This document shows positions 569 through 20,181 of a stretch of 36,081 nucleotides of DNA, piece by piece; the first letter of the stretch is position 1; each line of letters starts with the position of its first letter. Where the stretch lies: positions 1 to 36,081 of IMG/VR virus record IMGVR_UViG_3300017971_000537; one strand, 5' to 3'. This stretch comes from a virus. Position numbers and translations under genes: made by a program. The notes under the pieces were generated by a model that saw only the letters and a program-made list of their open reading frames with translations, had not been told where the DNA came from and did no database searches.

Positions 569-1279
569 TTATAGAGAACGTCTGGTAGACGCTTCTAAGG
601 TTATTCCCGCTTTCATTTTATGTTTATATTTTTTGTCCATATCTTCCGTTGGAACAATAAACAGTTCCATAGAAGATTGCCCTTTGACGTTTGCCTTTAC
701 TTTCTCAACAACTCGCTGGTCTTTTGGTATTCCTACAAAATCCAACAGGTTATCCACTTTATCCAAGTCGCTTAGGCTTTTCACATTTAAACTGAATATC
801 CTGTTGGGATACTTTAACAGCGCAACATGGGTTAGCCTATGGTAAATATCGTATGTATGCGCTATCTGGTCTTTGCTCGGTGGAAACCCGAAGAACGGGT
901 ACATCCCAAACCAGAAGTCAGGGGTTGCCCATTGTGTCGGGGTATTCATTGCTTCCCTTCGGTTTTCACTACTCTTCCAGAACGATTCAACCGTTTCCTC
1001 TTTGTCCCGCCACATATTGACAAACTTCACTCCTGGGAATAGCTTCACCATCTGGCTCAAGTGCTGGATCCACACATAGCTGACATCCCCCGTGAAATCG
1101 TATTTCTCTGCTCTCCTTCGGATTTGCTTTATCACCTTATGATAATCGCTGAATATTCCAAACCAGTGAAGTCCGTCTATCTCATGGGAAAAATAACTGT
1201 TCGGCTGTATGTTCAAAAGGTGGGCAAGCGAGGTTGTCCCACACTTACCCACCCCGAAACCTAAAACTAACTGTCTCAT
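569..1279 (-). CDS. Sulfotransferase-like protein
   Basis: This 236-residue protein begins MRQLVLGFGVGKCGTTSLAHLL, which contains the P-loop-like 5'-phosphosulfate-binding motif (GxxKCGTTSL) of PAPS-dependent sulfotransferases. A later segment, VKFVNMWRDKEETVESFW (about residues 83-100), resembles the 3'-phosphate-binding strand and helix, where an Arg and a Ser follow a hydrophobic strand. Family members move a sulfuryl group from PAPS to a hydroxyl or amine. The acceptor cannot be read from the sequence. The gene overlaps the upstream zinc-protein gene by ATGA, with GGAGAAATT upstream of the start, so it belongs to the late operon. It may modify a virion glycan or a host surface component. 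Family call fairly secure, role unknown. Confidence 0.8.
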   Translation of the reverse strand: MRQLVLGFGVGKCGTTSLAHLLNIQPNSYFSHEIDGLHWFGIFSDYHKVIKQIRRRAEKYDFTGDVSYVWIQHLSQMVKLFPGVKFVNMWRDKEETVESFWKSSENRREAMNTPTQWATPDFWFGMYPFFGFPPSKDQIAHTYDIYHRLTHVALLKYPNRIFSLNVKSLSDLDKVDNLLDFVGIPKDQRVVEKVKANVKGQSSMELFIVPTEDMDKKYKHKMKAGITLEASTRRSL

Positions 1280-1506
1280 TCGCTTAATTTCTCCATAATG
1301 TCGTTACATTTATCGAGAATGTCATCTAACTTATCTTCTATATCGTTTGCTGTCTCTTTTAAACTTAAAAGTTTTTTTATTGTATGAAAGTGAATCCCCA
1401 TAAAAACTGTTGATCCACTTCCAAAACATGAACTGCATAGTTCCCCATCTTGGAAACCAGTACCTTCGCAATCTTCACAGGTGCTTGGAGGCCCATAATC
1501 TGTCAT
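1276..1506 (-). CDS. Small DnaJ-type zinc-motif protein
   Basis: A 76-residue protein with two CxxCxG-type motifs near the N-terminus (CEDCEGTGF and CSSCFGSG), the pattern of the DnaJ cysteine-rich domain, so it probably binds one zinc ion. The C-terminal half (LLSLKETANDIEDKLDDIL...) is a probable coiled coil. AGGAG lies 7 bases before ATG 1506, two bases past the stop of the beta-helix gene, and its own stop overlaps the sulfotransferase start. A similar motif occurs in the protein at 31938-32120. Function unknown; a chaperone-like or scaffolding role would be speculation. Confidence 0.7.
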   Translation of the reverse strand: MTDYGPPSTCEDCEGTGFQDGELCSSCFGSGSTVFMGIHFHTIKKLLSLKETANDIEDKLDDILDKCNDIMEKLSE

Positions 1507-1508
1507 AA

Positions 1509-2516
1509 TTATGCTCCTGCAACACCAGTTTGCTCAATATGCAGACCACCACCTGTGCCAGTAATCGGCATCGTTCCAATAACCATATCCAGGTTATCGT
1601 CCTGCCATTCATCAATACCAAAAGCACTGCAATTATGTAAAAGAATCGAATGCTTTTGACCACTTGCGGTAGTATGAAATGCTTGGTTAATACTTGTCCC
1701 ATCATCGGCAAAGTTGGTAAAAATACAATTATCAAACAAGATATTTCTACCCGTTGAAGTAGCTGCCGGGACTGCAACCATCGCACAAGCCGCTGTTTTA
1801 GAGTGGGATTTAATCTGACAATCTTTAAAGGTTATATTGTTAGGTCTGCTTGTACTCGTAAAACGTATGCACCCCTGGTCAGAACCAGTTCTGATGCTCC
1901 ACACATCTTGACCAATGTGACACCTTTCAAACATCGAAAGGCCGGCATTACCTATATAGAGAGCAGCAGCCGCAGCCGTTGCAACCTGAGTGGTTGCCAT
2001 CAAACCGTTGAAGTAACAATTGTTAAAATAATTTCCGTAACTTGTGACTTCAACAGCACATAGATTTCCCGCATCAGCAGCACGATTCGAAAAAGACATA
2101 TTCCAGCACTGGCAATTATGACCGGCAAAATCCACAACCTCGGCAACCGCAGCAGTCGTGCATTCCATAAGAACATTAGGCGCATAAGAATCGACACCAT
2201 AATATCCGGGCCCACCAAGACCGACTAAATGCGTGTGGTGTTTTGCCCATGAAAGAGCCGAAGTCACGGTATAAGCCCCTGGAAACACATAGACTGTATC
2301 ATTACGCCCTGTGGTAGTAGCAGCATAGGCAGCCGCAACCGATGTAAAAACCTTACCCTTGGGTAAATGCTTTGTTGCCCAATCATTAAAATAACTTGTT
2401 GAACTATTAGCCGAAGGAACAACAAAGAATGCATCACCCGTCAAACCCTGTGTATTTGGCCCAACCGGATGACCGAAACTTGTAATCCCATTTGGAAAAT
2501 TAGTATATCTCGCCAT
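1509..2516 (-). CDS. Probable beta-helix virion protein
   Basis: A 335-residue protein. After MARYTNFPNGITSFG and a short linker comes a region typical of right-handed parallel beta-helix proteins: VFTSVAAAYAAT..., VYVFPGAYTVTSALSW, HTHLVGLGGPGYYG, then repeated strands with N and F ladders (NCQCWNMSFSNR, NYFNNCYFNGL, ITFKDCQIKSH, ILFDNCIFTNF). Phage proteins of this shape are often tailspikes or surface decorations that bind or cleave polysaccharide, but no catalytic residues can be assigned. The position just after the major capsid gene fits a structural protein. The start has AAAAGGT at a usable distance. The first codons may form a virion-attachment segment. Confidence 0.7.
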   Translation of the reverse strand: MARYTNFPNGITSFGHPVGPNTQGLTGDAFFVVPSANSSTSYFNDWATKHLPKGKVFTSVAAAYAATTTGRNDTVYVFPGAYTVTSALSWAKHHTHLVGLGGPGYYGVDSYAPNVLMECTTAAVAEVVDFAGHNCQCWNMSFSNRAADAGNLCAVEVTSYGNYFNNCYFNGLMATTQVATAAAAALYIGNAGLSMFERCHIGQDVWSIRTGSDQGCIRFTSTSRPNNITFKDCQIKSHSKTAACAMVAVPAATSTGRNILFDNCIFTNFADDGTSINQAFHTTASGQKHSILLHNCSAFGIDEWQDDNLDMVIGTMPITGTGGGLHIEQTGVAGA

Positions 2517-2537
2517 TATATTTTACCTTTTTAGGAA

Positions 2538-2630: not shown

Positions 2631-2659
2631 TTGACATTAGCCTACAAAGCTGATACAAT
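2631..2659 (+). promoter_or_regulatory. Sigma-70-type promoter for the HNH gene
   Basis: TTGACA at 2631-2636, a 17-base spacer, then TACAAT at 2654-2659. This is a consensus -35 and a near-consensus -10 at the ideal spacing, pointing at the plus-strand HNH gene whose ATG lies 33 bases downstream. It allows transcription against the direction of the surrounding late operon. A closely matching promoter precedes the other HNH gene at 10223-10251. Confidence 0.8.
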
Positions 2660-2691: not shown

Positions 2692-3216
2692 ATGTCTAAA
2701 TTAAATATGGGTTATGTTCTTGTCAAACATCCAAACCACCCAAATGCCCACCATGATGGTTATGTCCCAGAGCATCGGCTCATTGTTGAAGCCCATCTTG
2801 GTCGTTATCTTACGCCTAAGGAATGTGTCCATCACATTAATGGGGATAGATCTGATAATCGCATCGAAAACCTTGTTGTAATGACATACCAACATCATGC
2901 ACAAATACATAATGGCAATTTTCATATGCTTTCCAATAAAAAATGGCTTGTCTATCAGTACATAACCCTGAATAAAACAATTATAAAAATATCAAAGGAG
3001 CTTGGATGTAGCAATACCTCTGTTTACAAAGCACTTAAAAAACATAAAATTAAAATTAAGGTTCGACATAAAACCAGATTTCCAAAGCTCCTTGACAAAA
3101 AATGGCTTAGAAAAAAAACTGAAACCATGACCCAACATGAAATAGCAAAACTTCTTGGTTGTAGTCATACCTCTGTTTACAGGTTCCAAAAATATTATAA
3201 TATCCATAAGCCATGA
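2692..3216 (+). CDS. HNH homing-type endonuclease with two helix-turn-helix repeats
   Basis: A 174-residue HNH nuclease. The metal-finger core reads EHRL (H28), VHHING (H47-H48), then N56 and N60, the pattern of phage HNH_3-type enzymes that nick or cut DNA. Two similar DNA-binding repeats follow: residues about 97-120 (ISKELGCSNTSVYKALKK) and 147-170 (HEIAKLLGCSHTSVYRF), each preceded by KKWL. A good ribosome site (AGGAG) and its own promoter lie upstream. It sits on the strand opposite to the flanking capsid and beta-helix genes, as expected for a free-standing homing endonuclease inserted between them. It is related to the HNH nuclease at 10284-10856, but there the helix-turn-helix is N-terminal. 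Confidence 0.9.
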   Translation: MSKLNMGYVLVKHPNHPNAHHDGYVPEHRLIVEAHLGRYLTPKECVHHINGDRSDNRIENLVVMTYQHHAQIHNGNFHMLSNKKWLVYQYITLNKTIIKISKELGCSNTSVYKALKKHKIKIKVRHKTRFPKLLDKKWLRKKTETMTQHEIAKLLGCSHTSVYRFQKYYNIHKP

Positions 3217-6699: not shown

Positions 6700-8566
6700 T
6701 GGCTTTCTGCTCCTTCATTTTCATCATTTCTATTGATTGCTTGGTTAAACTATCCATCTGTGCCTTGTATTGTTCTAACTGTGGCCCCATCTCCTTGGCC
6801 TCGGCATCGGCTAACTTTAAGATAACGTCTGCCTGTATCTTTGCTATCTCAAACTGTTTCATAAATAGTTCGAGCTCATGCTTGTCACGCTCAAGCTCAA
6901 GTTTCTGAATCTCCAACATAATCTTCGGGTCGGGTGGCGGTTCTTTTGGTTCTTTTGGTATCAGAGCATCAAGGTCGGGGACGTTCAACGCTTCAAGGTA
7001 TCGCCTCATAATAACCTCATCGTTCAATCCCTGGCCCCTCACTTCCATAAGGGCTTGCGCTCTTGCAATTTTTTGGGTATCAGTCATCTCGGACGGGTCA
7101 CTAATCGGAATCATGCTCAAATCATCTGCATAATCTTCCGGTGTAATACTGAAAAACTTACCCTCAAACTCGAAGTCCTTGTTTTTATCAAGATACAACT
7201 TATTCAACCGCTGGATTTTTTTGAACTCTTCTTTGAGCGACCTGTATATCCGCTTGTAGACAGACCCGAATACTTTTAACCCCTCGTCTATTAGCTTGTA
7301 GACCGAAGCAGCAGGGGTATTGGCAGGGGGTGCATCACCTGTCAGCAGGTCAGCCGTTGACCCCAACTTTTGTCCCGCCTCAATCATCAGGTTAATCAAG
7401 CCAAAAGTTTCTGACGCAATCCTGATTTCGGGCTTTGGCAGAATCGCCTTTTTGATGTCTTCCCCACGGGCGTTGATGGGTTTCCATTCACCCGTCTTAA
7501 ACTCCATATCACCCGCACCAAGGGCATTAGCCGCTTCCTTGGTAATCCAACCACCGCCCTTGTTGTTGATGGTTGCAGCATCAAGGACTTGGTTTATGGA
7601 TGTATTGATTGTCCGGTTGATGGGTTGCAGGAGTCTCCCAAACCCTGAAGGATAGAACGAACCGTCAATGGACGGCATAAAGGGATAGAGGGTAAAATAA
7701 CCCACAGGCTTAATATATCTTATTCTGCCTGTCTTAGATCCCTCAACGACCTCAACCCCTTCTTTGTCAAAACGGGCGACAATACGGACAACCTTTTTCA
7801 AATCACGGTGAAAGGTAACAATATAGGGTTCCTTGTACCCGTCATTATCCAGGTCAAGAAATGTATGCTGTTCAATAAAAACGTGTTGGGCTTCAGGGTC
7901 ACGGGTATCAACATTTTCCTCTTCTGACGCCTGACCATACTCAAATTCTTTCCAGACATTGCTCCTGAATCGCTCTTCAATCTCATTAGGCATAAACTTC
8001 ATGTAATGAGATGCACGGGGCGCACGGTCAAGGGACTTTGCCCAGTAGTTGACAACGACATCCTTCAGGCTACAATACTCCGACACATTACGGCCCAGGT
8101 TTTTGCTAAAGTATGTTTTCTTGAAAAACCCGCCTGTAACGGGCATGATGGTAAGGGCTTTGTCCATGTCGGACTCCCACTCTTCCATCTCTTCGGTCAA
8201 CTGCCACGACATATGAACCGATTTCCTTTCGGCAGTTTCGGCTTTTGCACCGTTCTCGTCACGCCCGATAATCTTTCCTTTAACAATACGCCTGCCTGGG
8301 ATAATCGCAGAGTACGCCCGTGCAGCAAACTGTACAGACGTTATAGATAACAAGGGATATTTGATATCTGCACCGTCTTTCTTATCCTGTAACACCTGTG
8401 CAGCAAGCTCTATCGCTTCGTCCTGTGTTTCTTCCCACTCTGAACGGCTATCCTTGTCAATTTCATATCCCAGAAAAGCATCCGACCCTATTTTATCAAG
8501 GGTGTCCTCGTCAAGCTCCCCTGCGATATTTGTTGAATCTAATATTTTGTTTATGTCTTCAGGCAT
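6653..8566 (-). CDS. Portal protein
   Basis: A 637-residue protein with the composition and order of podovirus-type (P22-like) portal proteins. It has an N-terminal helical part, a wing region, a stretch FYPSGFGRLLQPINRTINTSINQVLDA (about residues 315-340) typical of the portal stem/crown region, and a long C-terminal coiled coil (IQKLELERDKHELELFMKQFE...). Portals form the dodecameric ring at the packaging vertex and bind the terminase. The start chosen is ATG 8566, with GGGGTGAT upstream; an earlier in-frame TTG at 8596 lies within a terminator-like hairpin. It follows the large terminase, the standard order. Confidence 0.88.
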   Translation of the reverse strand: MPEDINKILDSTNIAGELDEDTLDKIGSDAFLGYEIDKDSRSEWEETQDEAIELAAQVLQDKKDGADIKYPLLSITSVQFAARAYSAIIPGRRIVKGKIIGRDENGAKAETAERKSVHMSWQLTEEMEEWESDMDKALTIMPVTGGFFKKTYFSKNLGRNVSEYCSLKDVVVNYWAKSLDRAPRASHYMKFMPNEIEERFRSNVWKEFEYGQASEEENVDTRDPEAQHVFIEQHTFLDLDNDGYKEPYIVTFHRDLKKVVRIVARFDKEGVEVVEGSKTGRIRYIKPVGYFTLYPFMPSIDGSFYPSGFGRLLQPINRTINTSINQVLDAATINNKGGGWITKEAANALGAGDMEFKTGEWKPINARGEDIKKAILPKPEIRIASETFGLINLMIEAGQKLGSTADLLTGDAPPANTPAASVYKLIDEGLKVFGSVYKRIYRSLKEEFKKIQRLNKLYLDKNKDFEFEGKFFSITPEDYADDLSMIPISDPSEMTDTQKIARAQALMEVRGQGLNDEVIMRRYLEALNVPDLDALIPKEPKEPPPDPKIMLEIQKLELERDKHELELFMKQFEIAKIQADVILKLADAEAKEMGPQLEQYKAQMDSLTKQSIEMMKMKEQKANANRQQGSANKGRTG

Positions 8567-8886: not shown

Positions 8887-11373
8887 TTAATACCCCGTAT
8901 ATCTGTCTACTACATTATTTCCCACTACCCTTGGTTCCCCGTAATGGTTGAATGGGGGGCCATAGAGTTTATCAACCGGGATCTCGATAGCAATTTTCAT
9001 GCCAGTAAGGATGAGATATTTCAGGCAGTCCATTAAATGGTCATTCTGTTTGACCACTTTCCCGTTCTCGTCCCTATGGTAAAGCCTAAACTCGTCAAAG
9101 AACGGGCGTAACGACCTAAATATCTTTAGTCTGCCCGACACCAACCGTTGCCAAACAGCAAATATACCAGCCTCAACAGGATTCTCTGCAAGGGATAAAT
9201 CCAAGCCAAGCTCAACATACTCGTTAAATAGGCTTTTACCGTCCTTCTGGCTTGAAGCCCGTGAAGCAGGATCAGCACAACCCGGTATCCATGACCCTCT
9301 GGCGTTTATCGCCTGGACATGGGTAGCTGGTTCTGCTTGCCCTTGCTTGTAGCATGAATAAATATAGACGATATCCGATTCTCTATCCCATGCCCCCCAC
9401 AGAGCAGCGGTAGCATTCCAACCCACATCTAACGCATACGCCCGTGGATACCACAGGGGAATCTCAAAATCGTCACACGCTATATCTTCCTCTAATATCG
9501 GGTATATCGCCCCTGCACCCAACTGAGGAATACCCTTTGCTCTGGCATCCCGTAAATAGGGGGGTGTTCCGTCTAATATCTCCTGCTTCTGCGATTCGGT
9601 TAAATGGGGGGCATCCTCCCATGTAGCGTTGATAATGAACTTTGACCCCTCCTGGTCTTCGGGGATTATGCCATTAGGCATAAAATTCATAACAACTTCA
9701 GATAATCCCAACAACGGTGTAAAGGTCAGGATCACCATACCGTTCGTTGTCATGGTACGAATTAGGCACTCACCGTATATTGCCATTGAACATTCTTCGT
9801 CCAACCATGCAACATCGACTTCATCCCCCTGGAACGCCTTACGTTTCTGGTCAAACGACTTAAACACCCCACGGCTCAACCCCCCAGATGTATGTTTGAC
9901 AAGAACAGATTCAACCGCATCCGGAACACCCCCTGCCTTTGGGTTGACCTTAGCGATAGTGTCCTTCCGGATCATGCCCGTGCCGTATTGTCCCGGGGGC
10001 CCTAACAGTTTTGCCTGTTGAATATCCCTCACGGTCTGGGATGTATCACCCGCCATCCAACACAAAACAGGGTCTTTAAACCTTCTACCCTCCCACCAAT
10101 CAGGATACTGACCTGTTAGGTGTAACGCTACCTCATACGCCCCAATTCCCTCACTATTATGATGTACCAAACCACCTGCAATATAATTATGATATTTTTC
10201 TACTTCAAAATCAAAAACGGTATTGACACCAATAGATTTTATTGATACTATATACTTACTACTTTTAGTAAAGGAGATTTCTGATGCCACCAAAGATTGA
10301 GTTGGATTTAGCAGATTTAAAATATTTAATTGAGTCGAAGGGATTACAGCTCCACATTGTTGCAAAGATGTTAGGGGTGAGTAGATCAACAATTCTAAGG
10401 GCTTGCAAAGAGCATACAATAAAAACTCAAAGAAATGGCCCACGATCTGGTTCAGATCATCCTGGATGGAATGGAGGCAATATTTCAACAAATGGATATA
10501 ATTATATTTACTGCCCCGACCATCCATATTGTACAAAACAGAAAAGAGTTTTTGAACACCGGCTCGTAATGGAAAAGAAACTTGGTCGCTATCTTCACCC
10601 TGAAGAAGTTGTGCACCATAAAGATGGGAACCGTTCCAATAACCACCCAGATAATTTAGAGCTTTTTTCAACAAATAATGTTCATAGATGTTTTGAATTA
10701 ATGGTACGGATAAAATACCTGTCTCAGAAAGAGCGTAGTCGTCTTCAGAGTGCTCTTGACAAAATCCCGAATATATCTCGGAAACGAATTGCCAACCATG
10801 ATCAGTTAGAACGCGATGATTTAGGGCGGTTTCTACCCAAGAACCGTCAGACATAGTTATTCTTACACACGGTTCTTTGTTGGGTTTTTTGAATGGGGCT
10901 TTTGCTTGTGCTATCACCTTTTTTTGACCATCCCACGAAAATACTTTGAATGGTTTCCCTATTTCAAAAAGTTGTCCAATACTTACTTCCCCGTTAGGCG
11001 TTTGTATAAGTGTTTGATATGTCAGACATTTTCCAATACGATTCGCGGCGATTATCGCCCGTTCCCTCTTAACCGCCCCCTGCCTGAAAAATTCAAGGTG
11101 TGGCCTGTATAATTCCCTTCTTAACGGTCCCCTGTCGGGGTAATATATGTCAATCTTGTTGTATAGCTTGCGATTTTCAAGCTCCGTTACCTGCACAAGC
11201 ATACTTTCAAGCTCAGAACGGGGTATGCCGTCCAAATCATCAGGTGTTATCTCTTTTCTGGCCCTTGTTATCTCCTCAAAGGTCTTCCTGACGATCTCGA
11301 CATCACACCCTTTGGCCTTGACTACCTTTTTTTTAGGCTTTTTTGGTTGTTTTTCGGGCTTTTTTATTGGCAT
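8887..11373 (-). CDS. Terminase large subunit, interrupted by an intein
   Basis: Packaging ATPase and nuclease that moves and cuts phage DNA at the portal. Numbering from an in-frame TTG at 11391: the Walker A motif ANRIGK-SEGIG is split after K121 by a 291-residue intein and resumes at S413. Walker B is VAWLDE (527-532), the coupling motif TFTP is at 556-559, and the nuclease acids are D655 (ALDVGW), D707 (CADPAS) and D788 (HLMDCL). Without the intein the protein is about 540 residues, a normal TerL length. I prefer ATG 11373, though neither start has a strong ribosome site; the start lies inside the 3' end of the small gene 11333-11518, so coupling is likely. Active enzyme requires protein splicing. 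Confidence 0.93.
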   Translation of the reverse strand: MPIKKPEKQPKKPKKKVVKAKGCDVEIVRKTFEEITRARKEITPDDLDGIPRSELESMLVQVTELENRKLYNKIDIYYPDRGPLRRELYRPHLEFFRQGAVKRERAIIAANRIGKCLTYQTLIQTPNGEVSIGQLFEIGKPFKVFSWDGQKKVIAQAKAPFKKPNKEPCVRITMSDGSWVETALNHRVLTDHGWQFVSEIYSGFCQEHSEDDYALSETGILSVPLIQNIYEHYLLKKALNYLGGYWNGSHLYGAQLLQGEDSDQVSFPLRAGVQKLFSVLYNMDGRGSKYNYIHLLKYCLHSIQDDLNQIVGHFFEFLLYALCKPLELLIYSPLTSLQQCGAVIPSTQLNILNLLNPTQSLVASEISFTKSSKYIVSIKSIGVNTVFDFEVEKYHNYIAGGLVHHNSEGIGAYEVALHLTGQYPDWWEGRRFKDPVLCWMAGDTSQTVRDIQQAKLLGPPGQYGTGMIRKDTIAKVNPKAGGVPDAVESVLVKHTSGGLSRGVFKSFDQKRKAFQGDEVDVAWLDEECSMAIYGECLIRTMTTNGMVILTFTPLLGLSEVVMNFMPNGIIPEDQEGSKFIINATWEDAPHLTESQKQEILDGTPPYLRDARAKGIPQLGAGAIYPILEEDIACDDFEIPLWYPRAYALDVGWNATAALWGAWDRESDIVYIYSCYKQGQAEPATHVQAINARGSWIPGCADPASRASSQKDGKSLFNEYVELGLDLSLAENPVEAGIFAVWQRLVSGRLKIFRSLRPFFDEFRLYHRDENGKVVKQNDHLMDCLKYLILTGMKIAIEIPVDKLYGPPFNHYGEPRVVGNNVVDRYTGY
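10223..10251 (+). promoter_or_regulatory. Sigma-70-type promoter inside the intein, for the antisense HNH gene
   Basis: TTGACA at 10223-10228, 17 bases, then TACTAT at 10246-10251. It points at the HNH ATG 33 bases further on. On the other strand the same bases encode part of intein block F (GVNTVFDF) and the strand before it (YIVSIK), so promoter and splicing domain share DNA. The -35 box, spacing and promoter-to-start distance match those of the HNH gene at 2692. Confidence 0.8.
10284..10856 (+). CDS. HNH homing endonuclease encoded antisense within the intein
   Basis: A 190-residue HNH nuclease. An N-terminal helix-turn-helix (about residues 22-45, HIVAKMLGVSRSTILRACKEH) is followed by the HNH core: FEHRL (H92), VVHHKDGNRSNN (H111-H112, N120), and DNLELF (N124). 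AAAGGAG lies seven bases before ATG 10284 and a consensus promoter lies upstream. It lies completely inside the intein but on the plus strand; its last 25 or so codons overlap intein block B in antisense. The core resembles the HNH gene at 2692 (both have EHRL, GRYL.P.E and VHH...G.RS.N), but the domain order differs. It would probably cut intein-free terminase genes and so drive intein homing. Confidence 0.92.
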   Translation: MPPKIELDLADLKYLIESKGLQLHIVAKMLGVSRSTILRACKEHTIKTQRNGPRSGSDHPGWNGGNISTNGYNYIYCPDHPYCTKQKRVFEHRLVMEKKLGRYLHPEEVVHHKDGNRSNNHPDNLELFSTNNVHRCFELMVRIKYLSQKERSRLQSALDKIPNISRKRIANHDQLERDDLGRFLPKNRQT

Positions 11374-11518
11374 TCGACAACTTTTTCGCAATTATCCTTA
11401 ACGTACCATCACTTTTGCGCCTTTTTACCCCTAAAAAAACATAACCTTTGGGAAAAAGCCAAACCTGATCCCCTTTAACCTCAATAAAACGGGGTTCTAA
11501 TTCAATTATCTTTGGCAT
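11333..11518 (-). CDS. Small basic protein overlapping the terminase start
   Basis: A 61-residue protein (MPKIIELEPRFIEVKGDQVW...) with a beta-type first half and a very basic tail (KKLSNANKKARKTTKK). AGAAGGA lies five bases before ATG 11518. It overlaps the start of TerL by about 40-60 bases and is itself overlapped by the end of the next small gene upstream. The basic tail suggests nucleic-acid contact. Function unknown. Confidence 0.6.
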   Translation of the reverse strand: MPKIIELEPRFIEVKGDQVWLFPKGYVFLGVKRRKSDGTLRIIAKKLSNANKKARKTTKKA

Positions 11519-20151: not shown

Positions 20152-20181
20152 TTGACAAAGCAATTTTGTGTATGTTAGTAT
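20152..20181 (+). promoter_or_regulatory. Rightward promoter of the divergent pair
   Basis: TTGACA (20152-20157), 18 bases, TAGTAT (20176-20181). The sequence CTTGACAAA...TTTTGTGTATGTTA matches the opposing promoter's CTTGACAAA...TTTTGTCTATGCTA, so both may share a regulator. The next plus-strand gene with a good ribosome site is 460 bases away, leaving a long leader or a noncoding RNA between. Confidence 0.6.

Follow-up and report, generated by a model that had tools for sequence, protein, structure and literature searches.

An intein in a phage terminase gene with an HNH homing-endonuclease-like gene, preceded by a predicted promoter, on its opposite strand

Terminase, intein and HNH gene at the locus

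The sequence analysed here, referred to as the window, is the 36,081-base virus record IMGVR_UViG_3300017971_000537 (positions 1–36,081). It contains a terminase (TerL) reading frame that is interrupted in frame by an intein, and an HNH gene lies wholly inside that intein on the opposite strand (Table 1). The TerL frame matched the Pfam families Terminase_6N (E-value 3.3e-19) and Terminase_6C (3.5e-7), and the Pfam Intein_splicing profile matched it with an E-value of 9.4e-9 at 35.7 bits, just under its cut-off of 35.8. Without the intein, the Walker A motif of TerL reads AANRIGK^S. The intein itself matched TIGR01445 (3.6e-8) and TIGR01443 (2.6e-4), both over cut-off, and possesses splicing regions with a nucleophile, the block B histidine, a terminal His-Asn and a +1 residue. 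In an alignment of 48 inteins that carry an antisense HNH gene, C1, H71, Y282 and N291 were invariant and H290 nearly so.

A Foldseek search with an AlphaFold (AF2) model of the intein revealed a Hint fold resembling the DnaB and RecA mini-inteins in the PDB (best E-value 9e-8, to DnaB). The ends of the model (residues 1–89 and about 260–291) were confident, with pLDDT values mostly of 94–98, and the middle (residues 90–258) gave 39–61 per ten-residue block, mostly < 60. The AlphaFold prediction therefore suggests that the two ends fold as a splicing domain and that the middle, which overlaps the HNH gene, is disordered. The last 30-odd codons of the HNH gene overlap the ordered stretch around the block B histidine, and so both strands encode ordered parts over some of the overlap.

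Table 1. Features of the terminase–intein locus and of the second HNH gene in the window
Feature	Positions	Strand	Size	Remarks
TerL reading frame with in-frame intein	8887–11391	−	834 aa	Likely ATG at 11373
Intein	10156–11028	−	291 aa	Inside Walker A motif of TerL, AANRIGK^C...HHN^SEG
Stop-free linker (intein residues 90–258)	10255–10761	−		Low pLDDT; largely the complement of the HNH gene
Region in which both strands encode ordered parts	10762–10856			Last part of HNH gene plus intein residues 58–89, including block B His71
Promoter-like site	10223–10251	+		TTGACA-17-TACTAT, TG one base before −10; upstream of antisense HNH gene
Shine–Dalgarno-like AAAGGAG	10270–10276	+		7 nt before HNH ATG
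Antisense HTH+HNH homing-endonuclease-like gene	10284–10856	+	190 aa	Wholly within intein
Promoter-like site	2631–2659	+		TTGACA-17-TACAAT, TG before −10; upstream of free-standing HNH gene, ATG 2692
Free-standing HNH+HTH gene	2692–3216	+	174 aa	HNH_3, 3.3e-14; flanked by structural genes of opposite direction

The 190-aa product of the antisense gene matched HNH_3 with an E-value of 6.3e-11 and 42.2 bits (cut-off 24.8), and its AF2 model, with a pLDDT of 86.7, comprised a helix-turn-helix and an HNH core; the closest solved structure was that of I-HmuI, as a weak match (E-value 0.15). Across 51 aligned HNH proteins, the HNH-motif residues R93, R102, H112, N120, N124, N131 and H134 were among the invariant positions. 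Both HNH genes of the window point in the opposite direction to the genes for terminase, portal and head.

A family of inteins with an antisense HNH gene

HNH searches were performed in viral contigs, genome contigs and deposited phages, and the resulting loci were screened with profiles of intein ends. Near-identical copies of one phage were collapsed using the central 100 nt of their HNH gene, which left 83 distinct HNH loci. Of these, 57 had an intein block or blocks on the opposite strand (56 had both blocks) and 26 had none; as most of the query proteins were themselves embedded HNH proteins, 57/83 is not a prevalence. The family of 57 includes Pseudoalteromonas phage PHS3 as well as phages of Pectobacterium and Dickeya, from which eight records matched the PHS3 nuclease; all four that were examined show the antisense arrangement. 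The HNH gene was antisense in 57/57 and the sense frame was continuous in 56/57; accordingly, we rejected both a bifunctional intein with an in-frame endonuclease domain and a split intein or fractured gene as descriptions of these loci.

Among the exteins examined, most were terminases of several families, and two of ten tested (L148 and L186) matched no family. One antisense-HNH intein (L182, 1969–4473, minus strand) resides not in a terminase but in an SNF2-type helicase. The insertion point is the P-loop, mostly as Gxx[GR]^[ST]GK[ST], although the junctions assigned in L185, L190 and L153 may be shifted.

The overlap of the two genes has also led to wrong annotation of terminase and nuclease genes in deposited phages. 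For PHS3 (L121, KX912252, 1676–3802), the terminase annotation starts from behind the nuclease gene; in the Pectobacterium phages L122, L123 and L127 (1640–3904), the terminase with its intein is a 'hypothetical protein' and the HNH gene is unannotated.

Relatives of the window terminase were also searched. Two further IMG/VR contigs (L001, L015, L022 and L023) are > 99.9 % identical to parts of the window phage, and in one record (L044) the C-terminal part of the terminase is 79 % identical to that of the window, the record beginning behind the intein site. When 80 terminase relatives were searched with intein profiles, the only matches were two copies of the window phage and one mini-intein elsewhere, and a DNA search of phages with the terminase region of the window gave no match. 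A terminase relative in L050 (2196–4262, plus strand) carries a small intein elsewhere, at a C-terminal position (KDNDH^C), with no nuclease gene visible. In L072, L077 and L082, terminase relatives are divided between two frames by an insert of ∼0.5–1.2 kb that follows Walker B; an intron or gene fission may account for this.

Selection on the two frames

A single relative reading phase between the HNH gene and the sense frame was found in 57/57 loci. In this phase, the embedded genes contained one stop in 12,379 codons (in L164), the sense frame being unbroken in the other 56 loci, compared with 268 in 5,729 for the free-standing relatives. The other two phases of the embedded genes had ordinary stop rates [502/12,436 (4.0 %) and 614/12,379 (5.0 %)], as did all three phases of the free-standing relatives (3.4, 4.7 and 4.1 %). 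These counts indicate that the sense frame is kept open by selection, and thus that translation of the intein runs across the region complementary to the nuclease gene. They also rule out the chance overlap of an ORF opposite the terminase, and an inherent phase preference of HNH genes is ruled out because the free-standing relatives have no low-stop phase. Separately, the HNH gene of L143 has an internal stop; this and the stop in the intein sense frame of L164 are possibly stages of decay or sequencing errors.

Substitutions were counted in nine close, non-overlapping pairs (L164, L173 and L143 being left out). The first, second and third positions of HNH codons had 199, 186 and 469 substitutions, respectively, whilst the changed sense codons were synonymous in 84 cases and non-synonymous in 544, such that sense residues evolve freely. 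The third-position bias, together with mostly non-synonymous changes in the sense frame, indicates that selection in the overlap acts to preserve the HNH protein. With 57 loci in one phase and selection that can be read for each frame, this is an unusually clean natural antisense gene overlap.

Promoter-like sites in the window

An earlier note on this DNA had proposed that a consensus promoter within the C-terminal splicing domain of the intein drives the antisense HNH gene, and that the free-standing HNH gene has a promoter of the same design. The coordinates, letters and 17-nt spacer of the first site were confirmed (boxes at 10223–10228 and 10246–10251, HNH ATG at 10284), and shuffling placed it beyond chance. 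The window contains six occurrences of the pattern TTGACA-N16..18-TANNAT, compared with an expectation of 0.44 from dinucleotide shuffles (0/100 shuffles reached six), and two synonymous-codon randomizations of the intein stretch gave P values of 0.008 and 0.011 for the antisense site. For the site at 2631–2659, tested on the near-identical copy L015, the shuffle P value was 0.002. At the level of sequence, therefore, −35 and −10 boxes at a 16–18 nt spacing are present above background, as for a sigma-70 promoter. The equal distance from the −10 box to the start codon at both sites also held, with 32 nt in between and the A of ATG as the 33rd base. The complement of the promoter, on the other hand, is not block F as had been claimed: it encodes intein residues 260–269 (IVSIKSIGVN), within a strand at 259–273 in the AF2 model, just before block F (the TIGR01443 match starts at about residue 271).

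The window site is among the weaker cases in the family, as its −10 box matches consensus at 4/6 positions, which is why the locus is not one of the 13 two-box loci described below. Moreover, a TTGACA-16-TACAAT site lies antisense within the portal gene (8049–8076, plus strand) without an obvious gene following it; a good pattern match alone is therefore weak evidence. The best site reading toward the structural genes (14290–14261, minus strand) is itself a 12/12 consensus match; consequently, the class of promoter does not separate early from late expression, the former having been suggested for these genes in the earlier note. A pair of diverging consensus-like promoters (20126–20098, minus strand, and 20152–20181, plus strand) is located between the leftward and rightward gene blocks.

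Predicted promoters across the family and in free-standing relatives

For the family, the encoded protein was held fixed, synonymous codons were drawn from the same gene and the highest-scoring promoter in the interval from block G to the HNH start was taken. The promoter was better than in the synonymous shuffles in 17/57 loci at P < 0.05 and in 11/57 at P < 0.01, figures that rest on approximate sigma-70 weights and on loci that are not independent. An exact TATAAT 15–52 nt before the HNH ATG was present in 16/57 (2.7 expected), and both boxes matched at ≥ 5/6 positions with a 16–18 nt spacing in 13/57 (1.3 expected). Four loci (L104, L105, L181 and L186) had 12/12 consensus matches, and matches of 11/12 and 12/12 occurred even at loci of 68–70 % GC (L004 and L181, the latter with 12/12 at 68 %). 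In PHS3, a GATAAT box precedes the HNH gene. When mapped onto the HNH tree, the P < 0.05 label required seven changes, at least four of which are forced by well-supported branches. No −10 box of ≥ 5/6 was found in place for 23/57 embedded HNH genes, and a −35 was wanting in several loci, among them the Pectobacterium loci L122, L123 and L127, where it was poor and the P values were 0.21–0.27. Judged by these sequence measures, the predicted promoter is a frequent and repeatedly found feature of antisense-HNH inteins, not a defining one.

For the free-standing relatives, 22 of 26 were testable (two were too near a contig end and two had no start), and the promoter beat the shuffles (P < 0.05) in four, one of which is the second HNH gene of the window. 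We thus rejected the notion that every HNH gene brings its own promoter, and the shared design put forward in the earlier note does not extend to HNH genes in general. Its host-readable sigma-70-type promoter for the antisense gene survives as a predicted promoter backed by enrichment in the family. The comparison of upstream regions that it recommended thus returned a divided answer: the boxes are enriched, but with 23 embedded genes devoid of a good −10, half of what it had named as counter-evidence applies to those lineages.

Probable mobility of the element

Two phages of Pseudoalteromonas marina, PHS3 and AL, differ by the exact presence or absence of the intein at GGAG^SGKS in terminases that are otherwise 98 % identical, and in the empty allele of phage AL the HNH gene is absent along with the intein. 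Identity of their flanks falls from 1.00 to 0.90–0.96 downstream of the site and is uneven upstream, with no clean co-conversion tract. Across 50 of the 57 loci (L128, L143, L163, L164, L173, L185 and L190 were not included in the distance and tree analysis), HNH distances correlated with intein distances at r = 0.91 and with extein distances at 0.79. In the pair L172/L176, identity was 78 % for the HNH protein, 86 % for the intein and 38 % for the extein. Distances and pairs of this type fit a unit moving between terminase genes. Presence or absence, and a similarity greater in intein than in extein, are consistent with homing, though linkage of nuclease and intein is no proof of it.

Proposed mechanism and alternative explanations

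We consider it probable (roughly 70 %) that the window carries a mobile intein with its homing endonuclease encoded separately, by an opposite-strand gene under a sigma-70-type promoter of its own. On the sense strand, TerL would be translated straight through the intein, the ends of which would form the splicing (Hint) domain and excise themselves; the stretch opposite the HNH gene would be tolerated as a peptide linker that is free of stops and mostly disordered. On the antisense strand, the promoter within the codons just before block F would start an mRNA near 10258, from which the HTH+HNH nuclease would be made using its own ribosome-binding site. The nuclease would then cleave the P-loop site of terminase genes that lack the intein and be copied into them along with it, and expression of the nuclease would thereby be uncoupled from late terminase synthesis. 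Splicing, DNA cleavage with homing, and in vivo transcription from the promoter are thus the activities that we infer for this element. We lean slightly towards the broader view that two-sided mobile elements of this kind are widespread in phages, each combining a self-splicing protein with a fixed-phase antisense, independently transcribed homing nuclease, the promoter of which lies in splicing-domain codons. In such elements, mobility would not depend on the invaded gene, and loss of the nuclease gene would break an essential packaging gene.

The antisense arrangement could be real and the promoter nonetheless a by-product of the [VL]-S-I strand before block F, with the HNH protein being made from longer antisense transcripts. 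The codons of this strand often read as TTGACA- or TATACT-like sequence on the complementary DNA strand. In several lineages the −35 box falls on the same V/L-S-I codons, and the 23 genes without a good −10 would be expected. Protein-preserving synonymous shuffles, however, yield too few such sites (1.3 expected vs 13 found), the VSI codons of the window and of the Pectobacterium phages supply the −10 region instead, i.e. the other register, and the 11/12 and 12/12 matches in GC-rich loci are difficult to reconcile with a by-product; we regard this explanation as rather unlikely. It is more doubtful still that the HNH protein is a packaging-associated HNH protein or a regulator lodged opposite the terminase, with no homing nuclease here. 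HNH proteins that work with phage terminases are known (excerpts of PMC11855218) and an HTH domain is present, but the gene is missing together with the intein in phage AL, tracks the intein more than it tracks terminase relatedness and also lies opposite the intein in the SNF2-type helicase. Least probable of all, to the point of being very improbable, is that the antisense transcript itself damps late terminase expression and that nuclease function is secondary: the predicted transcript is fully antisense to TerL, and no plus-strand terminator-like site is listed just behind the HNH gene, yet purifying selection clearly acts on the HNH protein and its motif residues are invariant in the 51 aligned proteins.

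The common view is that an intein needs its nuclease as an in-frame fusion, so that homing depends on the host gene being expressed. If our preferred reading, an intein with an opposite-strand nuclease gene, is true, then a recurrent nuclease of this kind with its own promoter would represent a distinct intein architecture. As PHS3 and AL share one host species and are with and without the element, direct tests of splicing, promoter use and homing are possible.

Comparison with known systems

Bifunctional inteins carry a LAGLIDADG or HNH domain in the same polypeptide and frame as the splicing blocks. The window intein is similar in that its mobility function lies between splicing blocks (A, B, F and G) and in its P-loop insertion; it differs in that the nuclease is a separate protein encoded by the other strand. 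Split-intein 'fractured genes', reportedly described by Dassa in 2009, have a free-standing nuclease gene between intein halves; in the window the intein frame is continuous and splicing would be in cis.

The intron endonucleases I-TevI, I-TevII and I-TevIII of phage T4 likewise reside within splicing elements and have their own promoters, which are middle or late with none early, but they lie on the same strand as the interrupted gene, and in the T4 case the promoter overlaps an operator that is a copy of the homing site (excerpts of PMC2988022). Among ten of our loci, no promoter region resembled the empty homing site, as such an operator would, beyond shuffles (P = 0.10–1.00).

Antisense homing genes are known from nuclear group I introns, in which His-Cys homing endonuclease genes (Didymium Dir.S956-2 and Dsq.L2066) are reversed within a self-splicing element and are thought to use their own promoter (excerpts of PMC9548176). 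That element is an RNA intron in rDNA, where the insert needs no sense translation, and its nuclease family differs; because the element in the window is a protein intron, the complement of its HNH gene must stay open and is carried as peptide. In the sections of the intein review PMC7765530 that were examined, no reversed nuclease is mentioned, and within the literature searched, in part as excerpts, no antisense nuclease gene inside an intein was found; one relevant preprint (10.1101/2025.01.02.630785) may overlap.

The hidden HNH genes of the ShiLan type in mycobacteriophage methylases (Arsenault, 2025; excerpts of PMC11855218) are similarly found in another frame of a stop-free, in-frame insert in a conserved phage gene, and the ShiLan HNH domain is detectably related to ours, having been matched with the L181 protein. 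These genes lie on the same strand without a splicing domain; according to that paper they have no detectable ribosome-binding site, a leaderless start from the host transcript being proposed. The window element, in contrast, has its HNH gene on the opposite strand, an intact intein, and promoter-like and Shine–Dalgarno-like sites. In Mycobacterium phage MKC-IRE-02 (L228, PP711298), an HNH gene at ∼1282–1893 (plus strand) lies antisense within a methyltransferase frame at 977–2530 (minus strand) that is without intein blocks, as an opposite-strand counterpart of the ShiLan insert.
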